From: Incurvaria masculella
Lineage: Eukaryota > Arthropoda > Insecta > Lepidoptera > Incurvariidae
Length of the DNA: 64,000 nucleotides
Reading direction: 5' to 3'
Assembly (NCBI GenBank): GCA_946894095.1
Contig: OX335662.1
Location: 14,092,001 to 14,156,000 of the forward strand
In this document: positions 34,801-58,800 of the stretch, piece after piece
Layout of the letters: every line of letters starts with the position of its first letter
Numbering within the stretch: position 1 is the first letter of the stretch
Program-made: the position numbers and the translations under genes
Notes under the pieces: model-generated
Database searches by the model: none
What the model saw: the letters and a program-made list of their open reading frames with translations, nothing else
What the model was told of the DNA's origin: nothing

Positions 34801-37800
34801 GCGCTGAAACAGACCTTTAACGTAGCCTCCAGATCCAGTAAAAGAGCAATTGCCGGAGCGAAGTTTGAGCATATGGGCAGAATTGGCAAAAACCTGATCA
34901 GTCACCCAACTGGGAGTCGTCGATTCTGGTCCCTCGCCAAATCTGTCGAAGCAAATTTCTGCCGCTCCTCACTTCCACCATTGCTGCAGCCTGACGGATC
35001 ACTAGCTTTTTCCGCCAAAGAGAAGGCCGACCTTCTCGTGGGCATCTTTGCGGCGAACTGTCGCCTGGATTATGGCGGCTCCATTCCGCTTGCCATTCCT
35101 TGGTGCGAAGTCTCTATGCCGAGCATACAATTCCGGCAGGGAGCTGTGCGGCGTGAGCTCTTCGCCCTAGACTCCAGAAGGCGAGTAGCCCATATGGCAC
35201 TTCTGCGCTGCTGTTGAAGAAATGTGCTCCAGAATTTGCTCCTGGCCTAACCCGCTTTTACCGTACTTCACTGGATATGTGTCTTCAGCTTGGAAATCGG
35301 TCAACATTCAGCCCGTGCCTACAAAGGCGATCTATCAGACCAGGCCAACTACCGTCCCATAGCCATTACCTCTCTTTTCTGCAAAGTGATTGAGCGCATC
35401 ATTATCTCTCAGTTGATGAAGTATATTTTTTTATGTAAATGGACATGGATGGCTAATACCAAACTGAACGTCAGATATTAGTCTAACACACCACATGGGA
35501 ACTAGGTGCCGTTCCTTATATTGCTCGGCTACACGAACCTAAGAATATTTTAGATCCTTCATCTATAGGGTCGGAAAACAATGGAATGAATGTATTCCGA
35601 GGTATTTCCCCTAAAGTACAACCTGGGGTCCTTCAAACGTGGTGTGAAGAAGCACCTAGCCGGTCGGCATTTATTTTCGCAGCCCCCTTAAAAGTTCCAA
35701 AGCTCATGGGTGTCGTCGGGCACCTTAATAGATAACTTACGCCATATGCCCCGCTTTATATAAAAAATACCACCTCGTAAGTAACAAAGGGGTTGTGTGA
35801 CAGTGCACACGGCGTCGGTTGATTCAGATAGAGTCTCCTCACGTTGAGTGTGGGGCGTGCGGTGTGTGTTGCAGGCGGCGGAGGGCGAGCTGACGGTGAC
35901 GCTGCCGCTGGCGGGCGGCGCGCGGCGCGTGCTCGACCTGCGGCTCAGCGCGGAGCTCCTGCCGCGCGGACACACGCTCGCCTACACGCGCCGCGGCGAG
36001 CGCCTCACCCTCGCTGCCGGCGCGCCCGACGGCCAGGTTCGTCACGTCATACACTTACACTGCGTACCGAAATGCTTATATTGCAAAGAATTCAGTAATG
36101 TATGCGTACACGACCGTTCCGAATTACTTATATTCACTCTCGTGAACGTCATTTTGACATAAGGGACGTGACTCTAGACCGCACACAGATCTTACAAAGC
36201 GCGCACGGTTGAGAGCATGTGCGCCGTTTACGCTGTCAAATGGCTGTCATCAAATCGTCATTAAACGTGTTTATATGTAGTTCTCTGATCGTGTGAACTT
36301 ATAGTCTGATATAACGAAGGCTTTTCGCCGTTTGTTAGTCTAATCAGACAATTATCGGCCTGGAATAACCACTCTCGAGACTTACGAGGCATTTTCGAGG
36401 TAGTTAGGTTAGGCTCTGGCATATATGTCTGCTCGAATTCATTCCGATTTGGACAATTATATTCGTTGGCCGTTTTAAAAACTGTATTTTAAATGCGTTA
36501 ATTCCTGCAAATCGAGCAAATAATGTACAGCATTGTGGGAAATTGGCGGGAAGTGCAGATAAACGCTTCCTCTCTTCACAGAATCATGCGCATTCGCCCG
36601 AGTACGTCCGCATGCGCAGAGCGTCCCCTTTCTACCATCGCTCAACGCGGAACGGGCTGGGAATACGACCCTACACTGGGACATTTCCCAAAATTTGAAC
36701 CAACCGAACCTCTAGATACTTTATACAAAGGATCAATATAATTATGAAATGCTCTCCTCGCCGAGGTATTACCTGACGGCAGTCATTGTTTTTGCAGCCC
36801 CCTAAAGACCAAGGGCATGCCATATACCGGGCGTAACAAAAAAAAAACAATTCTCCAAGTTTCCATTGCTTCGCTCGCCGCCGGCCTGTCGGCTGCTTCT
36901 AACGGATGCGCCGCTCATACCCGAACTTCACCCAGCTGTCTCTCAATCGCAGGCTGGAAGGTGCAGCGGTTACGCCAGGTCTTCGCAGGCGGAGGTCCTG
37001 TGGAGGAACTGTGCCACGACGCGTGCGAGGCGTGGAGTCGTCGTGGGAGCGCTGTCCACGTGCCGCGGCCTGCGCGGGCTCCTTTACGACGGCCAACAGT
37101 TGCTCTACATATAACTTGTTGTGCAGACGGAGGCCGGGGAACTGTGCCACTACCAGGGCGGCGTGCGAGGCGTGGAGTCGTCGTGGGCGGCGCTGTGCAC
37201 GTGCCGCGGCCTGCGCGGGCTCCTTTACGACGCCGAACAGTTGCTCTACATATAACGTGTTGTGCAGACGGAGGCCGGGGAACTGTGCCACTACCAGGGC
37301 GGCGTGCGAGGCGTGGAGTCGTCGTGGGCGGCGCTGTCCACGTGCCGCGGCCTGCGCGGGCTCCTTTACGACGGCCAACAGTTGCTCTACATATAACTTG
37401 TTGTGCAGACGGAGGCTGGGGAACTGTGCCACTACCAGGGCGGCGTGCGAGGCGTAGAGTCGTCGTGGGCGGCGCTGTCCACGTGCCGCGGCCTGCGCGG
37501 GCTCCTTTACGACGCCGAACAGTTGCTCTACATATAACGTGTTGTGCAGACGGAGGCCGGGGAACTGTGCCACTACCAGGGCGGCGTGCGAGGCGTAGAG
37601 TCGTCGTGGGCGGCGCTGTCCACGTGCCGCGGCCTGCGCGGGCTCCTTTACGACGCCGAACAGTTGCTCTACATATAACGTGTTGTGCAGACGGAGGCCG
37701 GGGAACTGTGCCACTACCAGGGCGGCGTGCGAGGCGTGGAGTCGTCGTGGGCGGCGCTGTCCACGTGCCGCGGCCTGCGCGGGCTCCTTTACGACGGCCA

Positions 37801-40800
37801 ACAGTTGCTCTACATATAACTTGTTGTGCAGACGGAGGCCGGGGAACTGTGCCACTACCAGGGCGGCGTGCGAGGCGTGGAGTCGTCGTGGGCGGCGCTG
37901 TCCACGTGCCGCGGCCTGCGCGGGCTCCTTTACGACGGCCAACAGTTGCTCTACATATAACTTGTTGTGCAGACGGAGGCCGGGGAACTGTGCCACTACC
38001 AGGGCGGCGTGCGAGGCGTGGAGTCGTCGTGGGCGGCGCTGTCCACGTGCCGCGGCCTGCGCGGGCTCCTTTACGACGGCCAACAGTTGCTCTACATATA
38101 ACTTGTTGTGCAGACGGAGGCCGGGGAACTGTGCCACTACCAGGGCGGCGTGCGAGGCGTAGAGTCGTCGTGGGCGGCGCTGTCCACGTGCCGCGGCCTG
38201 CGCGGGCTCCTTTACGACGGCGAACATCTGCTCTACATTGAGCCGTCAGGTGCGGAAAATATGCACGGATTATTTATCTTGTCAACTACTCTGCTCGGAT
38301 TCGGCCAATATCAGCTGAGAAGGCGCGGTCATGACCCATACCAAGACTTAAGTATTTGTAGAACTCCTCTTTGCGTTCTCCTCAAATATGTAACTAAAAC
38401 CGTGCTTTTATTGTTGTTGGACTATTATGCATTGGGTATTGATCCCAGACCTGGGGGCTGCACAGTTAGTGACGGGACAGTTGTCCGCGCAGGCGCAGAA
38501 ATGAGCTCCCCTCACTACGTGTACCGACACGAGGACGCGACGGGCGAGCGCGCCTGCGGACACGCCGCCGACCGCTCGCAGCACCGCCTGCGCCGGCGCC
38601 GGCGGGACACCACCGGTGGGGTGAGCTACCATTCAACGAACGATAGACAAACATTGTTTTTCCTCCGAATCTGAGGCAGCAAAACCTACAGACTCAGAAT
38701 ATATTATTACTATGATGAGCCCACAAATCTATGCTCCCTCAGAGTAATCATAATATGCTCCCCGCTGGCGTTTCGGCGTTGGTGGGAATAGAGTCCCTTT
38801 GCGTATTACCTCACGCTTGGACATTGGGAGAGCTATATAAAATCAAAAGCGCATGGCAGTCTTATCCGCAAAACACATGTCCAAAATCCACATGCGTGAT
38901 TTAGTGTGGCCATATTTGCTTCCTCAATATGGTCTGTTGAATTCTTGCCGAGATTCTGCTAATTGTTATTGGTTGAATTGCTTACGTTTACTTCGTTTAC
39001 TTCGTCTCTTTTTTCTTCTCTTATATATTATATATGATATTATTATTATTATTATCTCTTCTTCTCTTCTCTACTTATATAAAAGGGAACGTCTGTCCAC
39101 ATGCGAGAGGTAATCTCCGTAACCACAAAACAGATCAAGATGCGATTTAAACCAATTTAAAGAGAACATCGCTGGGAACGCTTTAGCGTACATACCATCA
39201 CGCTAAATATCCAAAGGGCTGAGCAATATCAATGAAATTACTCTCAAACAAAATTAACTTGCGACGTCATTCAACGATTCACTATTTTCGCACTAATTGT
39301 CAGAAAGCGGATGGCGCAGGGCGGAATACCGACTCTTCTATACGTATTTTGTTCGGGAGGGTATAGGTTCGAATCCTGATAGCCTCAATTTTTTTTTTCG
39401 TTTTTTACATTTTATTGTTTATGGGGTGTCGCATATAATAATTATAGCATGGATTAGACTTATCTCTACTTATATCAAAGAGAACACTTGTCCACATGTT
39501 CGAGGTAAACTCCGTAATAAATATTATATATTATATAAAAGGGAACGTCTGTCCACATGCAAGAGTGTACAGAAAATATCGCTGGGCTCACTCTAGGATA
39601 CATACCATCACGCTAAATATTCTAAGGGCTGAGCAATATCAATGAAATTACTCTCAAACAATATTAATACCATCCCGTGGCGCATGACGGCGTCATTTTG
39701 CCAGAACCGATTAACAATTTTCGCATTAAACGTAGAAAGCCGGATGGCATAGCGCGCATAATCGACTGTTTCGAATATATTTTGTTCGAGGGAGGGTTCA
39801 GGTTCGAATCCTGAAATCTCAATTAGTTTTTTCTGTTTTTTTTTATCTCGCATATAATTATAACATGGATTCGACATAATAGATCAAATTTTTTTTCTGG
39901 TTTTTTTACGTAATTTTTTTTTCTTTATTTCTTTATTAAGGTTCGCCAACAGGGTAATACACGTACAATTTACAAAAGGAGATGTGTTACAAAAATATAG
40001 CGTTCGTGCACACCCCACAAGTGGCGAAGTTTAATGGCAAAACTATTTTCCTAAGGCCCAGTGGCGCGACACTTCGGCGATCGCTCTCCGAAGTTAAGCA
40101 ACGCTGGGTCCGGTCTGGTCTTGGATGGGTGACCATTCGACCGTTGAGAGAGGCTGGCCGTGGTTCGGTTTCCACGTTAAGCTGTAGGTCCCCTTCCTCA
40201 CTTACTAGGTGGTAGGGTTTATCCCGCCCGGGTTGGTACCATCGCATTGGATGAACGATGGTCGAAGCGGCAATGAAAATTGTCCGTGTTTTCCATCCAG
40301 TTCAATGTAGCCGTGCAATATAAGGAAGGTCCTGGCATGGCACCTAGTTCCCATGTGGTGTGTTGGGCTAATACCATGACAGAACTTGTGGTATTAGCCA
40401 TCCATGTCCAGTCACATAAAAAAAAAAAGGAACAATTTTAATTCATGGTATGAAGAAATTTTGTTCCCGAATACGGCTGAGTTAATCAATGTTCAAACAC
40501 GTCACTTTTAGCGAACCACATGGAGTTCATTCAATAATGTCCATACAAAGTGACGTGTTTAATCACACGCGCTGTGAAAAGAAATTTTCAAACTAGGTAT
40601 AAGAACACGCACCTGTTTTTTAATGAATAGTTTCTATGGTTTGGTCAAGAATATGAGTTTGGTGTTGGTCATCACTGATTGCACTTATGTTTCTTCTTTC
40701 CAGACTAGCTAATTGTACAGACACGCATGGCTTTATTATTCCCGCAACTTTAGGGCTAATTAGCATCAGTGGGCCCATTCAGGTAAGAGTGACTTCGAGT

Positions 40801-43800
40801 TCGAAGTGAGTTAACTTAAAAATAGCTGGGAAATATATAATTAGTTGATATTTAACGACGAATTCGATCTCACTCTTACCTGATTGGGCCCCCATGCAAA
40901 ATTATGAGAGGGGTATGCAAATAAGCAGTGGTATGAAATGCTTATAAAGTTTGGTTTCCACGTCTAGCCTGATTCTGCTCACAACTTAAAAGCTACATGA
41001 AATAACTCTAAATTACCAGAGCGGTGAGCATTAGGGTGAAATGCTTATAACTTGAGAACCACTCACCCGATTTATATGCGAATTGTATCTACGTTTGGCA
41101 TCTCTGAGTGCGCTAGAGTTACGGATGGGTGACCGTTTTAGGTGTTGATTTCTTATTTAATTAAGCTATATCGGCTCCATCCGTTATGATTAAAAAGTAG
41201 CAGATAAATTACATCGCTATTGACCAGCCTTTTCGACTAGCCATTTAGGCTACTTTTTATCTAGGAAATAATTCAGCTCGACATCAGTCTAAAACGACAT
41301 GGACCCGAGCGGAGCCGGGTACCGCAGCTAGTGACTAATAAAAGTGTGTTCTCCTGCAGCAAAAAGTATGCGTATGTGCATTTTTAGGTAAGTAGTTTAA
41401 ACGTAGAGTCAATTGCAGCATAGCGTTGAGTGTTTATGGTGAAATCTTTCTTCTGGCAAGTCCTTGGGTTTTCAAGTCAATAACCATTCGAACAAGACGT
41501 CCACATGACGCAGTATTTAGTGACTCGAGAGGTTTTGGTCATCAACTCAAGCTGTATTTTTTTTTTCCGAGTTACTAATATGGTTACTGTGCTGAGGGAT
41601 TAGAATAACATTGGACCTCCAAAATCCACAATCCGCGAGTTACCATTCCAGCCGTTTTGGCAAAAAGCTATCGAGTATGTTTCAACTGCATTTGAAGATT
41701 CCCAGGTTACAGGTATATAGAAAGGCACTCGCCCACGTCTTAAGCGAAGAGATGCAGATACATTCCTGAATTCGAAACACTGTTCGTGTAGTGTTGGCGC
41801 AGACATGGGGCAGCGACTGCTATTGCATCACCCCATCGTAGTTGTCAATCGTCGTAGAGCCGAGCGGGAGTCTCTATTCCCGGGCGCAAGCGGTGGAGTT
41901 ATCGCGCGGTGTATGTCGGTTGCAGTACTCGTTGCGCGCGCCGTCCAGCGCCAACGAGCAGTCCCGCTACGTGGAGCTGGCGCTGGTGGTGGACCACGAG
42001 GGCTTTAACGCCGCCGGCGGAGATCTACGCGCGCTCCACCGCGAGTGCAAGGACATCGCCAATATTATCAACGCCGTATGTACTGCATGTGTGTCCATTT
42101 AGGACTTAATACATCCCATAACCCCAACTAAATGTAAATTGTCCACTTTCCATCTGTGATCAGTCTAACCATAGATAAATGATAGTACTAAAAGATTGCT
42201 AGCGTCATACAAGTGTTGAATAGGGATATTAAAAGTCAACAGATGGCATTGCAATTCACATTTGAGAATACATTAAATACAAACCAATGAAAATGTAAGA
42301 TATATTTTTATTTACAATGACATTACTTAATTTATAGTTAAAATGTAACGTTTTCATCATGCCTGCCTAGGCAAAATTTGGAATTAAGCTTGGTTTAATA
42401 ACGGTCTAACTAGTTCTGGCAGTGACGGGAGATTTGAAATGTCATAGTTCCAGCGAAAATAAGAAGTATTTAGCGAGTTTTGTACGTAGTATGACGTTAG
42501 GAGTACATCCCTACTATCCTTTGTCTATGTTCTAACAGACTATGAGGAGGTGTCGTACGGCATTTTTGTGATTTGGTATAGTAATAATAAACTATTATGA
42601 TAATATCGTTCTTTTTAGACGCTTCTCGTGGTGTGAGTCCCGAACATGTTTGCCCTTTCATGGTAGCTTTATACCCAATTTTGTAATTTCTTCAATATGA
42701 GGTTTTAGTTTCTGGGGCTTAAGTAATTTGGTGATATTTAATAAAAAGCAGCAGAGAAGGACACCAGCTGGGCCTCGATTATTTAGTGGTTTTCAGTGGC
42801 TTTAGTTGATTGCAGGCTTTGTTTACGGCCGATTATTCAAAGTTTGTGTTGCACCAAAGCTTGTAGGAGGAAATCTCAATTGAAAAATGTTTTAGATTTA
42901 GAGTATCGCGTTTACCAGAATATGCGGCGCAGCTCGAAGTCAGTTTAAGAAGGCATTCTCCAGGATCGCCAGTACACTTCTGGGCGTAATTTCCATGATT
43001 GTTTCTTCCACATTTATCTGGCGGGTCACGATCTAGACTTGCTACCTCGCCAGACTATCGAGGTCCAGATGGGTCGCCAAAATGTCCACGACTGATTGAG
43101 CAGCTAACCCTCATATCGGGCTCATATCCGCAATGAGACTTTAATGGAACGTTGTGCACTACAGATGTACGCGCCACTGAACATATTCGTGGCGCTGGTG
43201 CACGTTGAAGTGTGGACGGAGCGGGATGAGATTCCTCTCGTCAACAACGGCGACGACACTCTCAACAGCTTCCTTAAGTACCGGCGCGAGGTGTTGCTGC
43301 GGCACCACCGCAACGACAACGCTCAGCTTCTGACGTGAGTATCTCAGTTTGCGGAGCGAGACCTTTAGTTAACAGTGGCGACGACACTCAACAGCTTCCT
43401 TAAGTACTGGCGCGAGGTGCTGCTGCGGCACCACCGCAACGACATCGCTCAGCTTCTGACGTAAGTATCTCAGTTTGCTGAACGGGACCTTTAGTCAACA
43501 GCGGCGATGACACTCTCAACAGTATCCTTAAGTACTGGCGCGAGGTGCGGCTGCGGCACCACCGCAAAGACAACGCTCAGCTTCTGACGTGAGTATCTCA
43601 GTTTGCGGAGCGGGACCTTTAGTTAACAGTGGCGACGACACTCAACAGCTTCCTTAAGTACCGGCGCGAGGTGCTGCTGCGGCACCACCGCAACGACAAC
43701 GCTCAGCTTCTGACGTAAGTATCTCAGTTTGCTTAGCGGGACCTTTAGTCAACAGCGGCGACGACACTCTCAACAGTATCCTCAAGTACCGGCGCGAGGT

Positions 43801-46800
43801 GCTGCTGCGGCACCACCGCAAAGACAACGCTCAGCTTCTGACGTGAGTATCTCAGTTTGCGGAGCGGGACCTTTAGTTAACAGTGGCGACGACACTCATC
43901 AGCTTCCTTAAGTACCCGCGCGAGGTGCTGCTGCGGCACCACCGCAACGACAACGCTCAGCTTCTGACGTGAGTATCTCAGTTTGCGGAGCGGGACCTTT
44001 AGTTAACAGTGGCGACGACACTCATCAGCTTCCTTAAGTACCCGCGCGAGGTGCTGCTGCGGCACCACCGCAACGACAACGCTCAGCTTCTGACGTGAGT
44101 AACTCAGTTTGCGGAGCGGGACCTTTAGTTAACAGTGGCGACGACACTCAACAGCTTCCTTAAGTACCAGCGCGAGGTGCTGCTGCGGCACCACCGCAAC
44201 GACAACGCTCAGCTTCTGACGTAAGTATCTCAGTTTGCTGAGCGGGACCTTTAGTCAACAGCGGCGACGACACTCTCAACAGTATCCTCAAGTACTGGCG
44301 CGAGGTGCTGCTGCGGCACCACCGCAAAGACAACGCTCGGCTTCTGACGTGAGTATCTCAGTTTGCGGAGCGGGACCTTTAGTTAACAGTGGCGACGACA
44401 CTCATCAGCTTCCTTAAGTACCGGCGCGAGGTGCTGCTGCGGCACCACCGCAACGACAACGCTCAGCTTCTGACGTGAGTATCTCAGTTTGCGGAGCGGG
44501 ACCTTTAGTTAACAGTGGTGACGACACTCAACAGCTTCCTTAAGTACCGGCGCGAGGTGCTGCTGCGGCACCACCGCAACGACAACGCTCAGCTTCTGAC
44601 GTAAGTATCTCAGTTTGCTGAGCGGGACCTTTAGTCAACTGCGGCGACGACACTCTCAACAGTATCCTCAAGTACTGGCGCGAGGTACTGCTGCGGCACC
44701 ACCGCAAAGACAACGCTCAGCTTCTGACATGAGTATCTCAGTTTGCGGAGCGGGACCTTTAGTTAACAGTGGTGACGACACTCAACAGCTTCCTTAAGTA
44801 CCGGCGCGAGGTGCTGCTGCGGCACCACCGCAATGACAACGCTCAGCTTCTGACGTAAGTATCTCAGTTTACTGAGCGGGACCTTTAGTTAACAGTGGTG
44901 ACGACACTCAACAGCTTCCTTAAGTACCGGCGCGAGGTGCTGCTGCGGCACCACCGCAACGACAACGCTCAGCTTCTGATGTAAGTATCTCAGTTTGCTG
45001 AGCGGGACCTTTAGTCAACAGCGGCGACGACACTCTCAACAGTATCCTCGAGTACTGGCGCGAGGTACTGCTGCGGCACCACCGCAAAGACAACGCTCAG
45101 CTTCTGACATGAGTATCTCAGTTTGCGGAGCGGGACCTTTAGTTAACAGTGGTGACGACACTCAACAGCTTCCTTAAGTACCGGCGCGAGGTGCTGCTGC
45201 GGCACCACCGCAATGACAACGCTCAGCTTTTGACGTCAGTATCTCAGTTTGCTGAGCGGGACCTTTAGTTAACAGTGGTGACGACACTCAACAGCTTCCT
45301 TAAGTACCGGCGCGAGGTGCTGCTGCGGGACCACCGCAACGACAACGCTCAGCTTCTGATGTAAGTATCTCAGTTTGCTGAGCGGGACCTTTAGTCAACA
45401 GCGGCGACGACACTCTCAACAGTATCCTCAAGTACCGGCGCGAGGTACTGCTGCGGAGCAACCGCAATGCCAAAGTTGAGCTATTGACATAAGTGTCTTT
45501 CTGTGTATCCTTCATTCTGTATATGTCGATTTACTGTGGCACGATTAACTCCCATCTTTTTGCATGACTTTATGAAGACTTTTGTAGAGGATGCAAAAGT
45601 TCGACATAGAATAAGAAACGAAACTCAATCTTAGCAAGCCACAATGATATTTGCAGGCGGAAACGTTTCGACAACGGAGTGGTGGGGAAGGCACTTAAGG
45701 GCACCATGTGCACTTACGAATACTCGGGAGGCATCAACACCAACCACTCGGAGACCGTGGGGCTGGTGGCCACCACCATCGCGCACGAGATGGGACACAA
45801 TTTTGGTGAGGTTCCGTCTTCTAGCGCTAGATTTGTAAAGAGTTATATTAGGTGCATAACAGATTCAACTGCTCAGAACACTTTGGACTATGTCTTGTTA
45901 TATCTCTCTATTGTAGAACCCATTATCAGATATAGGCAACCCCAAAACGTTTCAACCGAGGCCGGTAGCAATTTTTTCAAAGAAGATCACATTGCTGCCA
46001 GCCGAAGACAAATCAGATGCAAACAAATCACACCACATTCCCGAAGGAATTAGGTTGCCAGGAATGCTACGCCGGGGAAGTTCTTTATTGTGCTTGGTTA
46101 CATTGAACTATACAGAAAACAATAATCAGTGACCTTTCCCTGCTGATGATATTTTTCTTAAATGTGGTAGAATGTGGTAAAATACATCAAAATGGAAGAA
46201 AGAGATGCATGCCTGGAAACTTAAACTGAGGGTCCAGTGTGTAATTCCGATGCGATATACACTTGGCTATGAGGTACATAAGGATGTGTGTACACGTGCA
46301 GGCATGGAACACGACAACGAAGAGGACTGCAAATGTCCTGACAAGAAGTGCATCATGTCACCGTCCAGCAACACCGTCAGTCCCGTGCACTGGTCCTCGT
46401 GTAGCCAGCAGGCGCTTGCACTATCCTTCGAGCACGGACTGGACTACTGCCTTCGGTTAGTAACTCCCGTTCCCACCACGGCGTTCTCACACATCCATGA
46501 AGTGCATCATGTCACCGTCTAGCAACACCGCTGCCCTCTTGCAAATCCTCCAAGCAAATAGGTCTGGATATCTTCGGTAAATCCATCAATAGCTGAAATC
46601 ATTCCCTTTGTAATGTAGAGTTACTTCATAACTAGATTGTTTGACTCGTCCATTGTAGGTTCAAGGGATCAATGAATACAATGAACAATGAACACCAGGA
46701 ACAAGCCGGAGAGGCTGTACGACATGCCGACGTGCGGCAACGGGTTCGTTGAGGCGGGCGAGCAGTGCGACTGCGGCGGCGGCGCGGGCAGCGCGTGCGC

Positions 46801-49800
46801 CGCCTGCTGTCACGCCGACACGTGCATGCTGCGCCGGAACGCCACCTGCGCCACCGGAGCTTGCTGCGACCTCACCGTCAGTCTTGCACTTCCTCTCTCT
46901 CAATGTGCCCACTGACACTGCACAATGTAGGCCTCCCAAATTCCTTTTATGGTAGTTCCATCTTTGTTCACTATATAAACTGTTATAAGATCTATTGGCA
47001 ATGTGTCCAATAACATGAAACCTATATCTTAAACCCGATATACACGCATCAGCTTCCAGCTTCTAATGTTGAAAACCAAATAATAAGAATAATAATAGGA
47101 ATCTCTAGGTATTTGTATACTAATTCAAGTTATCCGCTTGAGCAAATTCTTGGAATTTATTGGATTGAATCTTTATTGTGCAAGATTGAAAAAATAATAT
47201 TAAAAGAACAATTAATAACAACTACCGAACTGCACAAATGTGAACTCCAGTTCCAGCGGTGAGTGTGTGTGTGTGCAGACGTGCAGCGTGCGCGCGGCGG
47301 GCGGCGAGTGTCGCGCGGCGGCGCAGGAGTGCGACCTGCCCGAGTACTGCACTGGACACTGGGAGATCTGTCCCGACGACGTCTACAAGGGTGTGTTTGT
47401 GTGTGTGTGTGCAGACGTGCACCGTGCGCGCGGCGGGCGGCGAGTGTCGCGCAGCGGTGCAGGAGTGCGACCTGCCCGAGTACTGCACCGGACACTCGGA
47501 GTTCTGTCCCGACGATGTCTACAAGATGGACAGTTTGCCCTGCGACAATGGCCAGGTACGATAACCTATATCTTCACGGCTACGCAGAGTCCACGGGCTT
47601 GTGGGTTGTGGTGGCAGAACTTCTGCATTGGGCTAACGACAAAGAGGGTCTAACTAGGGTACGAGATAGTTCCACGAAGACGTGGCGAGTTACCACTCCC
47701 ATCTAATAAAGCCTTCACACGGTTGTTTCACTTGTTGACGCTCGATCCCATGTCTGGCCACGGTGGCCTGATCCAAGGCAGCCTTTACGAGAAACCCATG
47801 TTTATTTTTTTATTACAAACAAGATAAATATACTAGTTTTGTTCATGTCCACCCAAATCAACATGGCTGGGCACAAATTCAAATAATATATAATTTTGAT
47901 GTCCTGTTGACTGCAATCCTTACACGGATGACTTGTGGCAATATAATGTGGGCGTATTCATGGTGGACTGTGGGCCAAAGTGACAATGTGTCGCGGGTCT
48001 CTTTGTTTTTGGTCTGCTTGCCGTTTAACGGGTTACAGTTAGTTACCTGTCAGTTAACTAACTGACAGATAGTTAACCAACAGATAAGTAACTGGCAGAC
48101 AGGTAGAAATGAGCTCCAGGGTCGTGGAAAGGTGAACGTAATTCGTGCCCCTATGTCATATTCAGATGTATGCCATCAATCAAACACAGTTGTAGGTACA
48201 ATATGAAGTTTATATTCTCTTAGATAATTACATCACACAGATGACAATTTGGAGGTTACTTCGCTGATATAAAATAGAATGTTTTACATATGACATGGTT
48301 TTACAGTGTGATTAGAGATCTAGGAAACTAACAAGGTCTGGATGCTCGGTGGTACTTAGCTTGATTAATGTTGGTGTGCTGTTTCCCCCCCCCCCCGGAT
48401 TTCTACTCTTGTTGGTTCAGCTTCAAGAAGCCGGTGAGGCCGTCAACTTGCCGATGTGAAGATGCAGCGAGAGAAGCTCGCATGTGCCTGTGATGTGGTT
48501 TCTTGGACGAAGTTATGGTGTGAAGATCAAGTGCTATATTTCTCTTGATGTTAGGGTACTATGTGGAATGTTGTTCATTCAACGTCGCATTCATAGAATG
48601 CGTTTTGATGTTCATTATATCCATCGGATAAAAGAAGTGAGGCGTAGGTTAAACTTGATCACAAAGATGGGTCAAAGGTGTATATAAGGAAAGGCCGCCA
48701 TCCTGTCGACCGCAACTGTTGGACAAAAAAAAAACTTCGTCTAATTATATGTTTCTTTTCAAAATAAAATTTGGAGTGGTTCCCTATTATTTGTTGTTTC
48801 GTTACTTACGTTGATTTGTTGTTATTGATACCGCATCCTTTCCTGACCGCCTCGATTTGCGAACTGTAATGGACGAGTTTGGTTAGGATCACGAAATGTG
48901 CTCGTATAGCGTTGTCATTTTGAAAAACATGATAACGATGTGCAGATCCCTGAATCTAGATCCTGAAATTCGGCTATGATCAGTTGTGGAATGACATTTG
49001 ACTGACCCATATTGCTCCATTATCAAATGATTGCCATCGATTGCTGCGATTGAATTATACTGGGTTGGCTCTATTTAAGCTCCAATACTAAATGATTTGA
49101 CTCTGTTCGTTCCAATCATTTAATTGGAGTGGACCAAACGCGACCTCGTAAGATAACTTACTCAAGAGAAGTTGAAGTATTTTTCTGGCATCAATTTTAA
49201 GTCTAAAACTTATTTTTGTAAACTGTGAGCCTTTCAGTAAAACTTTCAGTGGCTCCTAAAAAGTAACAGAATACCGAATAATTATCGGCGTAACCAACGA
49301 GTGTTACTGAAAAATATGACTGCCCCGATCTGATTAAGATGTTTGACATGAACCAGAACCTTGACTTGCGTGGTAACAGTAAAAAACTCAACCACTCAGC
49401 TTCAAATACAAACATCTGAAAGCACTTCCTACCTATAGTCGAGTCCAAAATTCGGCGAACTAGTTTGACAGCTCAAAATGCACGAATGTTGCCACAATTT
49501 CGCTAGTGAAGTCTTTCATCGATAGTTGCCACATCGCGCGGTTCGGTCTCCACTCTAACTTGTGGACGGACGATGGCAAAATAACAGGAAGTGGTCATGA
49601 ATTTTCTCTTTTGCCGGTGTAACGTCATCATACTACTGCACTAAACTTTTTCGGCATAATACTGGCCAAAATATCTTTGCATTTCGATAAAAATACTTTG
49701 TTAAGAAAATTATTATTTTCGGATATTTAATCTTAAAAATATATTTGTGTATTGTGGATCAATTTAAATATTTAAATTTGATATGACTTGTGATGCGACA

Positions 49801-52800
49801 TTACCGAATACTTGCGTTTGATTTATTAGTTGGCCATTAAATTTGAATAAACTTAATTTGAGATGTAAGTTTGTATTAATAAGTTATTTCGTTTGTTGAC
49901 CATTGTATTTAAAATGGAAAAAGATGCCAATAATATATAATTTCATGCAGAATGAAAAAAATATAGATAGACGTAATAGATATATATATAAGTATTCCAG
50001 TTCCATAAAGAAAATACTGCTGAATGGGTAATTTTTATACCGAAAACAGTATTACGTACTATAGCAAAATGTTTCTGTGTCTGCGCTCACGTCAGTTTTG
50101 GGGCAAAACAGACGTGATCGCTATCTGCTATCTGCGCTCACCTCTCACCTCAAAACGGACGTATGATCAAATATGTACGTACTATAGCAAAATGTTTCTG
50201 TGTCTGCGCTCACGTAAGTTTTGGGGCAAAACAGACGTACTCGCTATCTGCTATCTGCGCTCACCTCTCACCTCAAAACGGACGTATGATCAAATATGTA
50301 CATACTATAACAAAATGTTTCTGTGTCTGCGCTCACGTCAGTTTTGGGGCAAAACAGACGTGATCGCTATCTGCTATCTGCGCTCACCTCTCACCTCAAA
50401 ACGGACGTATGATCAAATATGTACGTACTATAGCAAAATGTTTCTGTGTCTGCGCTCACGTAAGTTTTGGGGCAAAACAGACGTACTCGCTATCTGCTAT
50501 CTGCGCTCACCTCTCACCTCAAAACGGACGTATGATCAAATATGTACATACTATAACAAAATGTTTCTGTGTCTGCGCTCACGTCAGTTTTGGGGCAAAA
50601 CAGACGTGATCGCTATCTGCTATCTGCGCTCACGTCTCACCTCAAAACGGACGTGAGCGCAGATAGCAGGTCACATAGATGGAATCTGTCCATTCGTCTT
50701 CCACTCTTCGGACTGTTCGGATGTGTTACCTCTTTTTGCGCACGGCTTGCCCTCGTTATTTGTTTTCAGTTACGTTTTTGTTTTGTTATTGTTGTTATTG
50801 ACTTTGTTGTTGTTGTGACTCTCAATAATTAACATGTTATGGATACGCCACATGAAAACTGTAGAAGTGAATCTACAACACCCCCGCCATCGGCGTCTAG
50901 TTGTGTATCGCCTCCGAAAAAAAGGAAACAACGAGCATTAAGTGATACTGAAAAAACAATGGTAAATAATGTGTATAAACATGTGTTCAAAGAAAAGTTT
51001 GAGGAAGAAAAGCGTGACACAGATTTGCCAGGTGTGTCGAACGTACATGTAAATCAAAACGAATGTGTGCTCAAATCCTAGGCACATCGAAGACGTCAAT
51101 ATACAAAGTATTGAAAGAAATTAAAGAAAATGATTGTTTTAGTCCACCTAATAAGCCCGGACCAAAAAGGAACTTTGAGACAAAAAACGACGACTTTACG
51201 TTTTTGGCGATCCGCTGCAAAGTGCACGCATTCTTTCACAATAATGAAGCACCGACAGACCTGGGGAACGCGCTCTCTAGGGATCTCAGCCACCCCGAGA
51301 GTGGCAAAGGTAAGACATTTTTATTTTAGATTTTTACTTTAACAAGCTAATGGAAAAAATACCACATGGGAACTTTTTGCTATGCCTTGTTTGTTTTACT
51401 GCAACATTGAACTGGAATGAAAATACGGTCATTTTTTCTGCAGTGTCATGGCACTAGCGCGAAAGTGATCAACTCCACCTAGGAGGTGGAGTTAATCACT
51501 TTCGGTGTAGAGGAGGAGGAAAAGAGGAATTGAAAATAAGAAAAAACTTCTCCTTATACATGCACATAGTCATATAATTATAATAAACTAAATTTATAAT
51601 CGTGTTCTAGGTACTTCAGGCCGTGAATGAAAATAATGATTTGCCAAACTTCTCATTGACCACAATGAGAGGAATCCTTAAATATTTAAATTTTAAATAT
51701 ATGACACGAACGCGACGCAGCATGCTCATAGATAGACAAGATATTATTTCGTGGCGAAGAAATTATTTGCTGAAAATAAAAGATCTTCGAAGAAAAGGTG
51801 TACCCATTTATTACGAGGACGAATCGTGGGTTAACGATGGTAAATATACATTTGACATTTAAAGTGAGCACTATACTGATTTTCCCCCTTGGTATTTTGT
51901 GTGAAATATGTATAAAAGTATGTAGGTAGTCCAAGTCATACTGGAATACAACAGAAATAGTAAAATACGTTTTATAAGTCCTTTCGAGTACTACCAGTCA
52001 CCATATTTGCTAATAATGTTTTCTAAAATCAAATTATTTTTCTGGACACACAATGAAGAAGGCGTGGATAGACCTTACTGTACAGACACCACGTCAGGCA
52101 TTTTTAGAAGGTCTATCCACTGGTCTCAAAGCGCCATCGGGAATAGGTCGCCGTTTGATTATATCGCATATTGGCAACGAGGAAGGTTTTGTAGAAGACG
52201 GGTTATTGATGTTTACATTCAAGTCGGGGAAGGAAGACTATCATCTAGATATGAACAGCAGGTGCTTCGAGGAATGGTTCGGGAACATACTCCCTAAATT
52301 AAAACCCAACGCTGTGGTAGTGATGGACAATGCCCCGTACCATTCAAGGAAAATTGATTCCTTTCCCAACATGAGTTGGACCAAAGCAACTATAGTGGAA
52401 TGGATGAGAAACAACAATATGGATTTTCCAGAAACAGCCACTAAAAGTGATTTAATTGACATTGCGAAACCTCGTAAACATGAATTTGATCACTACGTAG
52501 TTGAGAAAATGGCACATCAACATGTTGTTACAATCTTGAGACTGCCTCCGTACCACTGTGAGCTCAACCCAATTGAGCTGGTGTGGGCACAAGTGAAGGG
52601 GCACGTCGCAAGACAAAACAAGAATTTTAAGTTGGAAGAGGTAAAAACTAATATTGACAAATGCTCTTCAACTATATTAACTAGTCCATGGTTATTTGTC
52701 CCTGTTATACTAAAAATGTAAGTATTGCCGTAACATTTTGACTATACAGTCGCATAACTGTTTATGTTTTTATTTATTTATATTTATTTATGTCTTTTGT

Positions 52801-55800
52801 GAAACGCCTTAATTTTTTTAACCATCAAACGTATTTTAATGAGAATTCGTAATAGAGGCAAATTTAATGTTTACTGTTTTATATGCTTATTTTTTCATTG
52901 TCATGTGTACACGTTTCCGTGATTTCTCCTAATAAATAAAATAAAAAGTACAAGCTTGTTTTATTTTACGGCAATTTACATAGACAAAAGGCAAATCCAT
53001 CCAAAGGCTGATCCATATCATAATTAAAATTAAAATAATAGAGCACTTTTACTTTTTCCAAATATATCCAGGCAAAACTACAAGACTATTTAAAATTATT
53101 TGCTTTTTTCCAGGAAGAAAACTTGTGTTATTGTAGATGTCCTATGAGTAACCTCACCTTATACTCAAAGTAACAAACCAAACCTACCGCCACTACCTAC
53201 GAATATATACCTATTAAACTTCTCAAACACCCAAAGGTCGGCTGGAAGAAATCTCTTCGAGGGATAAGCCCGCCTTTGCGCCCCACTTATGTTGTTTTTG
53301 CACTATACTTTCTTTTGTAAATTGTTTTTTTTTGTGGCGTAATAAAGAATTTTCAATCAATCAATCAATCGACCTTATAAACTCCATGATAGTAAGAATA
53401 AAGTTTACACAAAAAGAAGAGCTTTTGTGTGTCTTCAAATAAAATTTTAATGTTGCCCAGCACAAGCCTAATATTTCAATCCAATTAATTGTATTATGCA
53501 ATTATGTTAATAAATACGCTGTGTTTATACACATATCACATTAAAAGGAAAATTGCACTTGCTGTTCGATCGGTATTCGATCGATACTGTAATATCGACA
53601 GTTACCCCATCACTATTTAAATTCTTCCGCAGCTGGTAACATTCTTTCCGTCAAACTAGTTCGCCGAATTCTGGCGTCTACTTTAATCGGGTGGTTGAAG
53701 CCTGAAACGAACTACCAGAAGATGTTATTGCTTCACCAAACACAAATACATTTAAAAACCACCACTGTTTCTTTACTGTTGCTATTTTCAAATGTTGACA
53801 AAGAGATCCAAGTATACATCTCTTGCGCTTGATCATCATCAATGCACTTTTCGGTTTTTATGACCGTTTCACTCAAGGAGAGTTTGTGTGTGCATTTGAC
53901 AGGCGTGGTGCGCGGCTGGCTCGTGCCGCTCACACACGGACCAGTGTCGACTTCTGTGGGGACCTTCCGGCACACAGTCACACGAAAAGTGCTATGCCAT
54001 CAACCGCAATGGCACCCGGTGAGTGTTCATCCCTACTACACGACATCAGTGTGCAGCTCGAGTTAGCTTTATTTAACACTGTACATCCGTAACCATTAAG
54101 TATTACGCACACCTCCATCGACTTGCTAGTGTGTTTGTGTGTCGGCAGGCACGGCAACTGCGACTACGACCGGCTGAGCATGTGCTATGAGCGCTGCGAC
54201 ACGGAGCACGCCATGTGCGGCATGCTGCACTGCCGCCTCCTCAACGATCAGCTCGAGTTCGGTGTGGACTCAGTGGCGCTGCAGTCGCACACCTCCATCG
54301 ACATGCCAGTGTGTTTGTGTGTCTGCAGGCACGGCAACTGCGGCTACGACCGACTGAGCATGGGCTTTGAGCGCTGCGACACGGAGCACGCCATGTGCGG
54401 CATGCTGCACTGTCGCCACCTCAACGAGCAGCTCGAGTTCGGTGTGGACTAAGTGGCGCTGCAGTCGCACACCTCCTTCGACATGCCAGTGTGTTTGTGT
54501 GTCGGCAGCACGGCAACTGCGGCTACGACTGGCTGAGCATGCGCTATGAGCGCTGCGACACGGAGCACGCCATGTGCGGCATGCTGCACTGTCGCCACCT
54601 CAACGAGCAGCTCAAGTTCGGTGTGGACTAAGTGGCGCTGCAGTCGCACACCTCCATCGACATGCCAGTGCGTTTGTGTGTCGGCAACACGGCAACTGCG
54701 GCTACGACTGGCTGAGCATGCACTATGAGCGCTGCGACACGGAGCACGCCATGTGCGGCATGCTGCACTGTCGCCACCTCAACGAGCAGCTCGAGTTCGG
54801 TGTGGACTCAGTGGCGCTGCAGTCGCACACCTCCATCGACATGCCATTGTGTTTGTGTGTCGGCAGGCACGGCAACTGCGGCTACGACTGGCTGAGCATG
54901 CGCTATGAGCGCTGCGACATGGAGCACGCCATGTGCGGCATGCTGCACTGTCGCCACCTCAACGAGCAGCTCGAGTTCGGTGTGGACTGTGGCGCTGCAG
55001 TCGCACACCTCCATCGACATGCCAGTGTGTTTGTGTGTCGGCAGCACGGCAACTGCGGCTACGACTGGCTCAGCATGCGCTATGAGCGCTGCGACACGGA
55101 GCACGCCATGTGCGGCATGCTGCACTGTCGCCACCTCAACGAGCAGCTCAAGTTCGGTGTGGACTGTGGCGCTGCAGTCGCACACCTCCATCGACATGCC
55201 AGTGTGTTTGTGTGTCGGCAGCACGGCAACTGCGGCTACGACTGGCTGAGCATGCGCTATGAGCGCTGCGACACGGAGCACGCCATGTGCGGCATGCTGC
55301 ACTGTCGCCACCTCAACGAGCAGCTCGAGTTCGGTGTGGACTCAGTGGCGCTACAGTCGCACACCTCCATCGACATGCCATTGTGTTTGAGTGTCGGCAG
55401 GCACGGCAACTGCGGCTACGACCGGCTGAGCATGCGCTATGAGCGCTGCGACATGGAGCACGCCATGTGCGGCATGCTGCACTGTCGCCACCTCAACGAG
55501 CAGCTCGAGTTCGGTGTGGACTCAGTGGCGCTCCAGTCGAACACCTCCATCGACATGCCAGTGCGTTTGTGTGTCGGCAACACGGCAACTGCGGCTACGA
55601 CTGGCTGAGCATGCACTATGAGCGCTGCGACACGGAGCACGCCATGTGCGGCATGCTGCACTGTCGCCACCTCAACGAGCAGCTCGAGTTCGGTGTGGAC
55701 TCAGTGGCGCTGCAGTCGCACACCTCCATCGACATGCCATTGTGTTTGTGTGTCGGCAGGCACAGCAACTGCGGCTACGACCGGCTGAGCATGCGCTATG

Positions 55801-58800
55801 AGCGCTGCGACATGGAGCACGCCATGTGCGGCATGCTGCACTGTCGCCACCTCAACGAGCAGCTCGAGTTCGGTGTGGACTCAGTGGTGCTGCAGTCGCA
55901 CACCTCCATCGACATGCCAGTGTGTTTGTGTGTCGGCAGCACGGCAACTGCGGCTACGACTGGCTGAGCATGCGCTATGAGCGCTGCGACACGGAGCACG
56001 CCATGTGCGGCATGCTGCACTGTCGCCACCTCAACGAGCAGCTCGAGTTCGGTGTGGACTCAGTGGCGCTGCAGTCGCACACCTCCATCGACATGCCATT
56101 GTGTTTGTGTGTCGGCAGGCACGGCAACTGCGGCTACGACCGGCTGAGCATGCGCTATGAGCGCTGCGACATGGAGCACGCCATGTGCGGCATGCTGCAC
56201 TGTCGCCACCTCAACGAGCAGCTCGAGTTCGGTGTGGACTCAGTGGCGCTGCAGTCGCACACCTTCATTAACATTGACGGTGAGGCGTGAGGAGTGGAAC
56301 TGAAACCACATAGTAACATCTGTCATTGCCTGCTATTATTAAAAATTTTTTAGGGCACATCTCTTTTCAAAAAGAGTTAGTTACATGGACCAACTTCTTC
56401 TCGTGGACCTTCATCCTCCGGTTTCCAGGCAGACTGGGATTTTGTTAAGACTGTTCCGAGAAATGTAAAAAACACATTTGCAGAGTTTTGATCTAAAGTC
56501 AGCACTGTACATACAGCAGACGTGTAGTGACAACTTCCCCAGTATACACTTCCTTGAAGGACTCACGCCGTTATTGATTACAAATCTGTCACTTCTCCTA
56601 CCCATTTAAAAATGGCATGAAAATAAGGAGATAGTCACCTCGATCTTGTGTTTCCAAAGGACTCCACTATGCCAGACTTTATCATGTATGTGTGAGATTC
56701 CTTTTTTTAATTACCTTTAATCCTGGTCGATTATTCCATGCTTATGACTGAAAGCTAATTGATGACATAGACAAAGGATAGTAGGGATAGACTGCTAACA
56801 TCATATAACGTACAAAACTCGCTAAATACTTCTTATTTTCCCTGTTACTATGACATTTCTAAACAGCCCCTCCTCCTGTCACTGCTAGAATTAGTTACAC
56901 CGTACTTAAGTACCAAACTAAGCTTAATTTCAAATTTTGCCTAGGCAGGCATGATAAAAAAATACGATTTGACTATAAATTAAGTAATGGCATTGTAAAC
57001 AAAAAAATATCATTGCGTTTGTATTTAATGTATTCTCAAATATGAATTGCAACACCATCTGTTGACTTTTATTATTCCTATTCAACACTTGTATAATGTT
57101 AAAAATCTTTCCCTGCTATCAATAATCTATCTATGTTGATGACAAGGAATGAGATTTTTTTCTTCGGCAAGAAATGGAGTTTTGAACATTTTTGATTTAA
57201 CTATATATTTTGTGAGTCCTGCAGCGGGAGCACAAATGAAAGTGGACACTTGTCGAGCTAGAGGGATAAGACATTTTGTCGAGGATTTTTATCCACTGTG
57301 ATATCACAAATGGGGAGCTCGATTAATTTATCGAGATCGAGAGTTAACTCGATAGAGAGTGGCAACCCCCACCGTTTTGTCCACAAGAACTGTCACTTTA
57401 AACCTCCCGACCCTGGCTGCGTTCGCGCAGACTGCTCCATGATATTCAGTGCAAGGAGCAAGAAATAGCGTTTTACAGAATAGCGGCGAACAAAATGCCA
57501 TTTTCTACAAATCGCCTACATATAAGTTATTTCGAATTGAATTTCGTATGGATGCACAATTAAGTACGTTTTTAATGAATTTAGATAAAAATTGCTTGGT
57601 TTAGTCCATTTGCCTTGTTAGATTAGAAGGATTGTAGTTTATCTAATGTCAATGTGAAGTTAATCTCTGCACTTTTTTCGTTTTCCTGTTCAGCTGGAGC
57701 GTTGCTCTAAGCCGTTCCGCCTGATTACTTCCTATAACGGAAAGTAAAGGATGGAATGGAAACGTCTTTGCCCAAACAAACCCATCCATCTTTCGCTCTT
57801 ATTACCGCTTTCCCCATGACTTTGAACCATGAAAAAGTTAAGAAACGCCTGTGCCATCGCCACTACATACGCACATATTCGTAACACGAACAAACACCTC
57901 CTTCTAGGATTTAACACACCCTCCCGGTGGTGGTGACAAAATTATCCTCAACAAACGTCAAATTAGTAGGATTAAATGTATTTGTGCTTCCACGAATGGA
58001 CAAAATTTATTCTTTGTCGAGATTTGTCTATGGTGTGGGTTTATTTTGACAACCTCACTCGACATAACATTGTTTATGCTATCAGTTAGCGACAAGTGTC
58101 CCGCACACAAGATAAAGACTATGTACGTAAGTTTGTCGGCCAGATAAAATTATTTGTGCTCCCGCTGCTGGTTAAATGTCAGTTGATTGAGTACGTTTTG
58201 CAGTTAACTTCACACTAGTTGCTAACAAAATGACGTCTTTAATATTTAAAGTTACTGCATGCAACTTTGTCGCCATCTCAGACCAAAAAGGAAAGAGATG
58301 TGCAATCTAGCGCGCCTACTTGGAGACCCGCTATAGCAACTTTTATTTCGGGAGTATATTTACGTGCTGCGGCGATGTTTGGACTCCCTACTCTCACGAA
58401 TTCACACCTCGCGAAACTGGTGTTGCATGAAGACATGTATATGTAATTGGTAGGAAATTAGCTCACACTTGAAAATCGATAATATACTTCCACTTGAACA
58501 TGTGCCAGGTACAATAATCCCGTGCCGCACTGCGCTTGTCGACCTTGGCATCGATGTGATTGACCCGGGGCTGGTGCCCGATGGCGCCAAGTGCGGACCC
58601 AACAAGGTAACCTTTTGCTGTATCGCACCGCCACCGTGAAACTTACGATCCATTTACATGCTCCATGGGGTACTATTATTTGACTAAGTGTGCAGAACTA
58701 CCCCATGAAATAGTGGTTGTGTTAATATCTAATGTGTATTGTTGAAAGTCAATCCAACAAGGGCTCCAAACCGACTGGTCAGCGCCACCTATTATTTGAG

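Follow-up and report, generated by a model that had tools for sequence, protein, structure and literature searches.

In amphioxus, minisatellites called “mirages” are found in the globin genes BflGb6 and BflGb9 and in the Adh3, TnC and PGBD5 genes (PMC3087553 and PMC3902484, both in the excerpts available), and their origin is called unclear in the excerpted text of PMC3087553. In the literature found, mirages have so far been described in a few lancelet genes; among the open-licence publications listed, no title or opening of an abstract mentions any in insects. Several other systems are related. As far as the accessible parts of the reports go, human internal tandem repeats associated with segmental duplications (PMC2812944) likewise cross the boundaries of exons in coding genes and can give rise to new introns, but their units average ~30 bp, whereas those described here take in a part of the exon or most of it. 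In Drosophila, too, tandem duplications at and near exons have supplied the material for new introns (PMC2891723, in part); there, duplications within coding sequence that had a proto-splice site became introns, whereas here there are arrays and the original exon has been kept. The duplications of earthworm metallothionein exon 4 (PMC12783039, in part) are also among the closest systems; a boundary structure is not described for them in the text available. Finally, Dscam-type arrays, according to the portion of PMC1397879 available, likewise consist of exon copies in tandem within a gene of an insect; those are spliced in a mutually exclusive manner, which the copies described here probably are not.

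The present analysis concerns a stretch of 64,000 nucleotides from the moth Incurvaria masculella (“the window”), in which exons 4, 7, 11 and 13 of a single Meltrin/ADAM gene are accompanied by tandem copies. The preliminary description stated that no gene with this pattern was known to have been described; that is not supported, as the amphioxus globin, Adh3, TnC and PGBD5 genes are reported to carry mirages. By their sequence, the Meltrin arrays appear to share the architecture of these mirages. As the amphioxus arrays are described in the available excerpts (PMC3087553, PMC3902484), both kinds consist of tandem units over one intron–exon boundary, on either side of the exon; their units are of similar order (150–160, 157, 60 and 108 bp in amphioxus); splice signals are present in many copies; and the inner copies are homogenised while those at the edges stand apart. 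Mirages are also expected to differ in copy number between haplotypes; a single sequence was analysed here, in which no second place was reported for the exon 13 unit. The differences are the lepidopteran host, the copy number (up to 18 here, 2–7 in the amphioxus excerpts), the presence of four arrays and a remnant in one gene, and the occurrence of 12 arrays in 264 kb; moreover, splicing has been examined in amphioxus, whereas the arrays described here are known from DNA.

The host gene

By its sequence, the host gene is an intact insect Meltrin/ADAM12, most likely lepidopteran, having a propeptide, a zinc site, a disintegrin domain, a transmembrane part and a long tail. In a 62-row protein tree, this Meltrin fell inside the lepidopteran group with a support of 100. 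In a 51-row tree its branch was long (0.96) and attached between the Lepidoptera and the outgroups, its exact place being unsure. All exons are on the forward strand. Exons 2 (33861–33948) and 3 (35875–36036), which encode propeptide, were located by tblastn with lepidopteran Meltrins and by reading their splice sites, and neither has an array. Arrays are likewise absent from exons 5 (38493–38620), 6 (41926–42075), 8 (45657–45805, with the zinc-binding motif HExxH), 10 (46699–46876, disintegrin), 12 (53903–54018), 14 (58509–58606), 15 (59033–59147) and 16 (59761–59856). The transmembrane exon and the start of the cytoplasmic tail occupy 63248–64000, and homologous tail sequence follows downstream (L013:3966-6029). 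When exons 4–16 are joined via GT–AG sites, using one edge copy from each of the four arrays, the result is an open reading frame of 597 residues. Intron 11 contains a DDE-type transposon, which itself has a 123-bp array. Scans of the window for Rfam families (at the gathering threshold) and for tRNAs gave no match.

Anatomy of the arrays

Tandem Repeats Finder reported arrays at 37021–38238 (period 141 bp), 43249–45467 (126 bp, and also 254 and 380 bp), 47263–47525 (136 bp) and 54106–56268 (180 bp). Counting of anchors gave 9 copies of exon 4 (spacing 140–141 bp), 18 of exon 7 (126/128 bp), 2 of exon 11 (136 bp) and 12 of exon 13 (177–180 bp), which bears out the four exon-derived arrays and the copy numbers first reported. 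Each unit comprises part or most of the exon together with a piece of intron of ~15 bp (exon 4), ~33 bp (exon 7), ~24 bp (exon 11) or roughly 26–43 bp (exon 13). For the exon 13 unit, both breakpoints have CGCACACCT in common.

Either side of an exon can be involved: the acceptor side is repeated at exons 4, 11 and 13, and the donor side at exon 7. In each array there is one complete exon, which is a single edge copy. Exon 4 has eight extra acceptor-side copies (36989–38113; the first of 138 bp, the others of 141 bp), and its complete exon is the last copy (38114–38249), the sole copy followed by a donor and with a frame open into exon 5. The complete exon 7 is the first copy (43165–43334, donor GTGAGT), followed by 17 extra donor-side copies of 126/128 bp (43335–45488). 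Exon 11 has one extra acceptor-side copy of 136 bp (47263–47398) before the complete last copy (47415–47555), and exon 13 has 11 extra acceptor-side copies of 177–180 bp (54106–56118) before the complete last copy (56119–56279). The extra copies keep at most one splice site each. That every unit keeps one, as initially proposed, holds for most copies: GT is present in 15 of the 18 exon 7 donors and AG in 10 of the 12 exon 13 acceptors, so that these dinucleotides have been lost from three and two copies, respectively, i.e., from 5 of the 37 extra copies. The remaining 13 exons had been called single, which needs correcting for exon 9 (see below).

Units of exon 7 are of two types, arranged as AB dimers and then as AAB trimers, and variants are shared in the dimers and in the 380-bp trimers, which supports the suggestion that unequal crossing-over was a driver. 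Amplification of exon fragments by a rolling circle or by a transposon is a very remote prospect: there is a transposon with an array in intron 11, but the arrays are in place at their own exons and in register, no transposon ends were noticed at the array edges in an unsystematic look, and the exon 13 unit, the one searched, was reported nowhere else. In that search (31 contigs, 552 Mb) it was found at its 12 places only, an absence that does not prove rarity. A dispersed satellite was rejected on this result.

Random placement of six founder units of the observed lengths, picked post hoc after the data had been seen, gave P = 0.002 within the gene span for at least four units spanning exactly one exon boundary; the same test over the window gave P = 0.00005.

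Divergence and coding constraint

In all three large arrays (exons 4, 7 and 13), the inner copies are homogenised, the boundary copies stand apart, and the copy at the far edge has the lowest mean identity. The most diverged copies are the first of exon 4 (mean identity 79.8%) and the last of exon 7 (72.1%), and the far-edge copy of exon 13 is only modestly apart (93.6%, versus 94.6% for the next). With the complete copies included and the diverged far-edge copies left out, variable sites were spread evenly over codon positions 1, 2 and 3 (13/117, 14/117 and 14/116); the intron parts had 15/91.

None of the 37 extra copies would yield a normal protein: the use of 36 would end in a stop, and that of the remaining one would shift the frame. 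When compared with 214 homologues, the first copy of exon 7 has all its near-invariant residues (F, R, N, D) intact, while 10 of the other 17 (copies 2, 3, 5–9, 12, 15 and 18) break at least one. Overall fit to homologues was best for the last copy of exon 13 jointly with copy 8, and was better for the last copy of exon 11 than for the first; at exon 4, four inner copies outscored the complete last copy, and at exon 7, copy 17 outscored the complete first copy and five others equalled it. On these sequences, homologue fit does not single out the edge copy.

In Dscam-type clusters, the copies as a rule have both an acceptor and a donor each, and they are conserved as coding sequence. Neither feature was found in the Meltrin copies, and a cluster of alternative, mutually exclusive exons was rejected on the lone splice sites, the stops and the even variation over codon positions. 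More generally, a use for the copies, either as alternative exons or as splice-site decoys that tune the amount of productive mRNA, is improbable. AG or GT has been kept in most copies, and in Cydia amplana and C. fagiglandana the predicted protein models have repeated exons; however, the second splice site that mutually exclusive exons have is missing from every copy, 36 of the 37 extra copies give a stop, there is no codon-position bias, and amphioxus Adh3 data and globin RT-PCR, in the part of PMC3087553 available, suggest that splicing is undisturbed. The biological use once proposed for the copies is without support here, variation being even over codon positions.

Arrays in other genes

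Within 200 kb around the window, 13 of 20 arrays were read by eye, and eight of the 13 read as further one-boundary exon arrays. Their hosts include a second ADAM gene, a DUF1676 (Osiris) gene, EDRF1 (two exons) and methionyl-tRNA synthetase. Together with the four in the window, this gives 12 one-boundary arrays in 264 kb. Two candidates were dropped as clear cases: the EDRF1 array at L020, in which the exon boundary was not placed, and that at L021, which is transposon-like. No exon edge could be recognised at L013 and L014, which have 66-bp arrays, nor in the 60-bp repeat at L018.

Exon repeats also occur outside this contig, on contigs C15 (P450) and C13 (trypsin). By eye, one close pair was seen among the matches listed in the P450 search (94 matches) and one among those listed in the trypsin search (154 matches). 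Among five unselected 10-kb loci on other chromosomes, none had an array recognisable as that of an exon edge; two of them (L029 and L031) have arrays of other or unclear origin. No exon-edge array was seen in seven unselected 3-kb P450 loci. Thus, exon-boundary amplification may be patchy across the genome. One of the P450 loci has an intronic 313-bp repeat that ends ~10 bp before an exon. In other species, the predicted proteins of the two Cydia species contain exon-sized repeats, and the counterpart of exon 10 is repeated there. A protein search with the two-copy reading frame of exon 13 gave no candidate.

A process specific to the locus had been suggested, which is not supported in view of the eight arrays in neighbouring genes and the exon repeats on C15 and C13. 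A wider version of that idea, in which the arrays stem from a recombination hot spot close to the end of contig C22, with few in the rest of the genome, is a serious but doubtful contender. The window lies ~180 kb from the end of this 14.3-Mb contig, and the 12 arrays in 264 kb may be set against none recognised in the five unselected loci, although the rates are not comparable without knowledge of which genes those loci contain; the repeats on C15 and C13 also speak against it. We tentatively entertain, as somewhat less than an even prospect, that exon-boundary amplification is widespread and continuing in this lepidopteran genome, that it is independent of that in amphioxus, and that it yields numerous natural arrays of competing splice sites which feed the birth of exons and introns.

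An artefact of assembly or amplification, with single exons in the true genome, is highly unlikely. The sequence evidence does come from one assembly rather than from reads, but derived variants are shared in a higher-order pattern, splice sites have decayed, the far-edge copy has diverged while inner copies are alike, the frame-fitting edge copy retains the conserved residues, and similar repeats occur in other genes of the 31-contig, 552-Mb assembly and in the protein models of both Cydia species.

A proposed mechanism

We consider it probable that the arrays are mirage-type minisatellites at exon boundaries, formed by tandem duplication and by unequal exchange or slippage, with copies that are untranslated, unspliced decoys, exon definition picking the edge. 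The process would start with a short tandem duplication across exactly one exon–intron boundary. After such a duplication, a single copy at the edge of the array would always be a whole exon: with a repeated acceptor side it is the last copy, and with a repeated donor side the first. The inner copies would then be expanded and homogenised by unequal exchange or slippage, as we infer from their sequence.

Many of the decoys have a splice site, yet would not be used, because pairing across the exon should prefer the nearest acceptor–donor pair, which spans 136–170 nt for the edge copy compared with at least 277 nt for a decoy. We propose that exon definition, by selecting the edge copy, allows the arrays to be tolerated. 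Base composition, which had been offered as a cause, does not set the arrayed exons apart: the GC contents of exons 4, 7, 11 and 13 are 0.68, 0.58, 0.66 and 0.61, and the nine other measured exons range from 0.56 to 0.75, so that the highest of the 13 values falls outside the four arrayed exons. Nor does GC explain the preference for boundaries over introns, which make up most of the gene.

In each array, the correct splice site has to be picked from among 2–18 look-alikes. Twelve arrays in 264 kb would offer many independent cases, with relative ages available from the divergence of copies. With them one could test exon definition, how often exon boundaries are duplicated, and the route by which new introns are proposed to arise. 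They are also a warning for annotation, as exon-sized repeats have already entered the predicted proteins of the two Cydia species.

Exon 9 and similarity between exons

Exon 9 (46302–46455) is followed in its 3′ intron by a decayed partial copy (46496–46576), probably of the donor side. The stretch 46342–46430 matches this copy with a score of 34, the best of 200 shuffles being 22. In a shuffle test of similarity among 16 exons, exon 12 matched the first copy of exon 13 with a score of 21 (shuffle maximum 19), and exon 5 matched exon 4 with a score of 17, which was reached by 1 of 200 shuffles. These two matches are tentatively taken for chance, or for the likeness of related cysteine-rich and GC-rich exons.

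Structure of the arrays

Four exon-derived arrays had been described in this gene, a Meltrin/ADAM12-type ADAM on the + strand, and Tandem Repeats Finder together with anchor searches bore them out, with 9, 18, 2 and 12 copies of exons 4, 7, 11 and 13, respectively, lying where they had been placed. Every copy was read: the acceptor side is repeated in exons 4, 11 and 13 and, among the four arrays, the donor side in exon 7 only; in each array, both exon sides are present in one edge copy only. In exon 11 the duplication comprises just two copies, of equal length. Duplication across exactly one boundary would explain why one splice site remains per unit, as in the preliminary description; GT or AG has been lost in 5 of the 37 extra copies. 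The other 13 exons had been taken to be single, but exon 9 is a fifth exon with a partial copy, decayed and lying within its 3′ intron.

Putative functional copies and gene identity

Copy residues were scored against 214 homologues (217 were fetched, from the best 120 of 619 and the best 120 of 1281 hits; the proteins P0001, P0037 and P0096 were excluded for internal repeats). The first copy of exon 7 retains all near-invariant residues, and at least one such residue is broken in 10 of the 17 other copies; in homologue fit, copy 17 lies above the first copy and five others equal it. For exon 13, the best score is common to the last copy and copy 8; for exon 11, the last copy scores above the first; and for exon 4, with the first copy excluded, four inner copies score slightly above the last. 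When the diverged copies at the far edge are excluded and the complete copies counted in, variable sites are spread evenly over codon positions 1, 2 and 3 (13/117, 14/117 and 14/116). If used, the extra copies (n=37) would bring a stop in 36 cases and a frameshift in one. With the edge copy, i.e., the sole complete copy of an array, exons 4, 7, 11 and 13 measure 136, 170, 141 and 161 nt; with any non-edge copy, the exon is at least 277 nt long.

Exons 4–16, joined via GT–AG sites, give an open frame of 597 residues. Pieces of the product match Reprolysin and Disintegrin (the latter scoring below the Pfam curated cut-off), and a search with the spliced protein returned insect ADAM12/Meltrin proteins (best 120 of 619 hits). 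A tblastn search located the transmembrane exon as well as exons 2 and 3, which encode the propeptide, and a tail homologous to a long lepidopteran Meltrin (48% identity, E 3e-115) lies downstream of the window, in locus L013. A 90-bp tandem repeat (63479–63684, 2.3 copies) falls within the part of the gene that encodes the cytoplasmic tail. In a 62-row tree (the window protein and 61 rows picked among the best 120 of 619 hits), the protein groups with Lepidoptera with support 100; in a 51-row tree (the window protein and 50 rows picked from the 217 proteins), its branch is long (0.96) and joins between the lepidopteran proteins and the outgroups, which makes its precise position uncertain. 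Short, fast-evolving Meltrin duplicates in the latter tree (the Cydia proteins P0064, P0045 and P0037, along with further short ADAM proteins of Lepidoptera) seem to have separate origins in several lepidopteran lineages. The assembly has 31 contigs and 552,006,686 bases; 31 is a common chromosome number among Lepidoptera.

Origin and turnover

An array would start with a duplication across exactly one exon boundary, always leaving one complete exon at an edge, and such a duplication can therefore pass selection; the remaining copies would then be hidden by exon definition. Why boundaries rather than introns are hit is left unexplained by this model, and GC-rich exons, previously proposed as the cause, likewise fail to account for it. 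The location of the window, some 180 kb short of one end of its contig (C22), may matter.

In all three large arrays, the far-edge copy has the lowest mean identity and the inner copies are alike: 79.8% for copy 1 of exon 4 (next-lowest 93.8), 72.1% for copy 18 of exon 7 (next-lowest 89.1) and, by a modest gap, 93.6% for copy 1 of exon 13 (next-lowest 94.6). Along the exon 7 array, two types of unit follow each other first as AB and later as AAB, with variants in common, as expected from unequal exchange, which favours the suggestion of unequal crossing-over as driver. The exon 13 breakpoints have a 9-bp sequence in common. By eye, the arrays of the sampled loci L010, L011, L014 and L034 have a truncated copy at the edge opposite the complete exon.

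Two other elements lie in the window. Intron 11 holds a DDE-type transposon (49434–53685) with 36-nt inverted ends (86% complementary) and its own 123-bp array (50053–50654). A stretch similar to 5S rRNA (40051–40180), without a match in an Rfam gathering search, is presumably part of a short interspersed element.

Arrays outside the gene

Twenty 10-kb stretches around the window yielded 20 arrays (period at least 60, at least 1.9 copies); the full list of 22 includes two from other contigs. Sequence was inspected for 13 of the 20, including all nine with unit GC of at least 0.55 and period of at least 75, and splice sites were called by eye, without annotation; seven of these nine read as one-boundary exon arrays (L010, L011, L014, L019, L024, L027 and L028). 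An eighth (L017:3692–4330), older and decayed, lies in EDRF1 (E 6e-6, slightly under the curated cut-off), which has arrays at two further places, L019:8928–9376 and L020:2158–3166. By eye, those in L017 and L019 are donor-side exon-boundary arrays of different exons and ages; that in L020 has an ambiguous exon boundary and is outside the eight. Of the seven, the L010 array lies in a DUF1676 gene, which we take to be Osiris. The L014 array corresponds to methionyl-tRNA synthetase (minus strand, E 9e-9) and the L027 array perhaps to a GAF domain of a phosphodiesterase (E 0.003–0.1); a Pfam search matched neither. The L021 array was rejected for its transposon-like appearance. A diverged second ADAM gene lies upstream of the window (L011:6521–7966 and L012, C22:14078521–14092000), with a donor-side exon 7 array (179 bp, 5.3 copies). 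Exon 7 is arrayed in both ADAM genes, with differing repeat units. Two arrays with a 66-bp unit and the same sequence (4.5 copies each) lie about 5 kb apart at L014:4064–4363 and L013:8867–9166.

On other contigs, a P450 exon has 2.6 donor-side copies (C15) and a trypsin exon two nearly whole copies, the second without its acceptor (C13); both loci were chosen for a close pair seen in a family search. These repeats, and the eight one-boundary arrays around the window, argue against the locus-specific process that had been suggested. No array recognised as an exon edge was found in five unselected 10-kb loci (L029–L033), of which L029 and L031 have arrays of other or ambiguous origin, nor in seven other P450 loci. 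The diverged array L031:7851–8483 (C13; 159 bp, 4 copies) has a minus-strand frame like a zinc-finger repeat, presumably FLYWCH. An intronic 313-bp repeat (L037:1399–2025, C10; 2 copies, 99%) ends about 10 bp short of a P450 exon and does not span the boundary.

Relation to known repeats

The preliminary description knew of no gene with this pattern. Two reports (PMC3087553, PMC3902484) describe "mirages", tandem repeats across exon–intron boundaries, in amphioxus globin, Adh3, TnC and PGBD5 genes, with inner copies homogenised in globin; Adh3 data and globin RT-PCR suggest regular splicing. At the DNA level, the window arrays share the structural features of mirages, and we judge them to be a new, taxonomically remote member of unusual scale.

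Repeated 7-mers at one shift occur in 4 of the 217 homologues: P0001 has distant repeats, P0159 a short repeat, and two predicted Cydia proteins exon-sized tandem repeats. In C. fagiglandana, the exon 10 counterpart is present twice, and the residues past the first copy look like donor read-through. In C. amplana, the exon 10 counterpart is present four times and that of exon 13 twice, the latter resembling whole-exon duplication.
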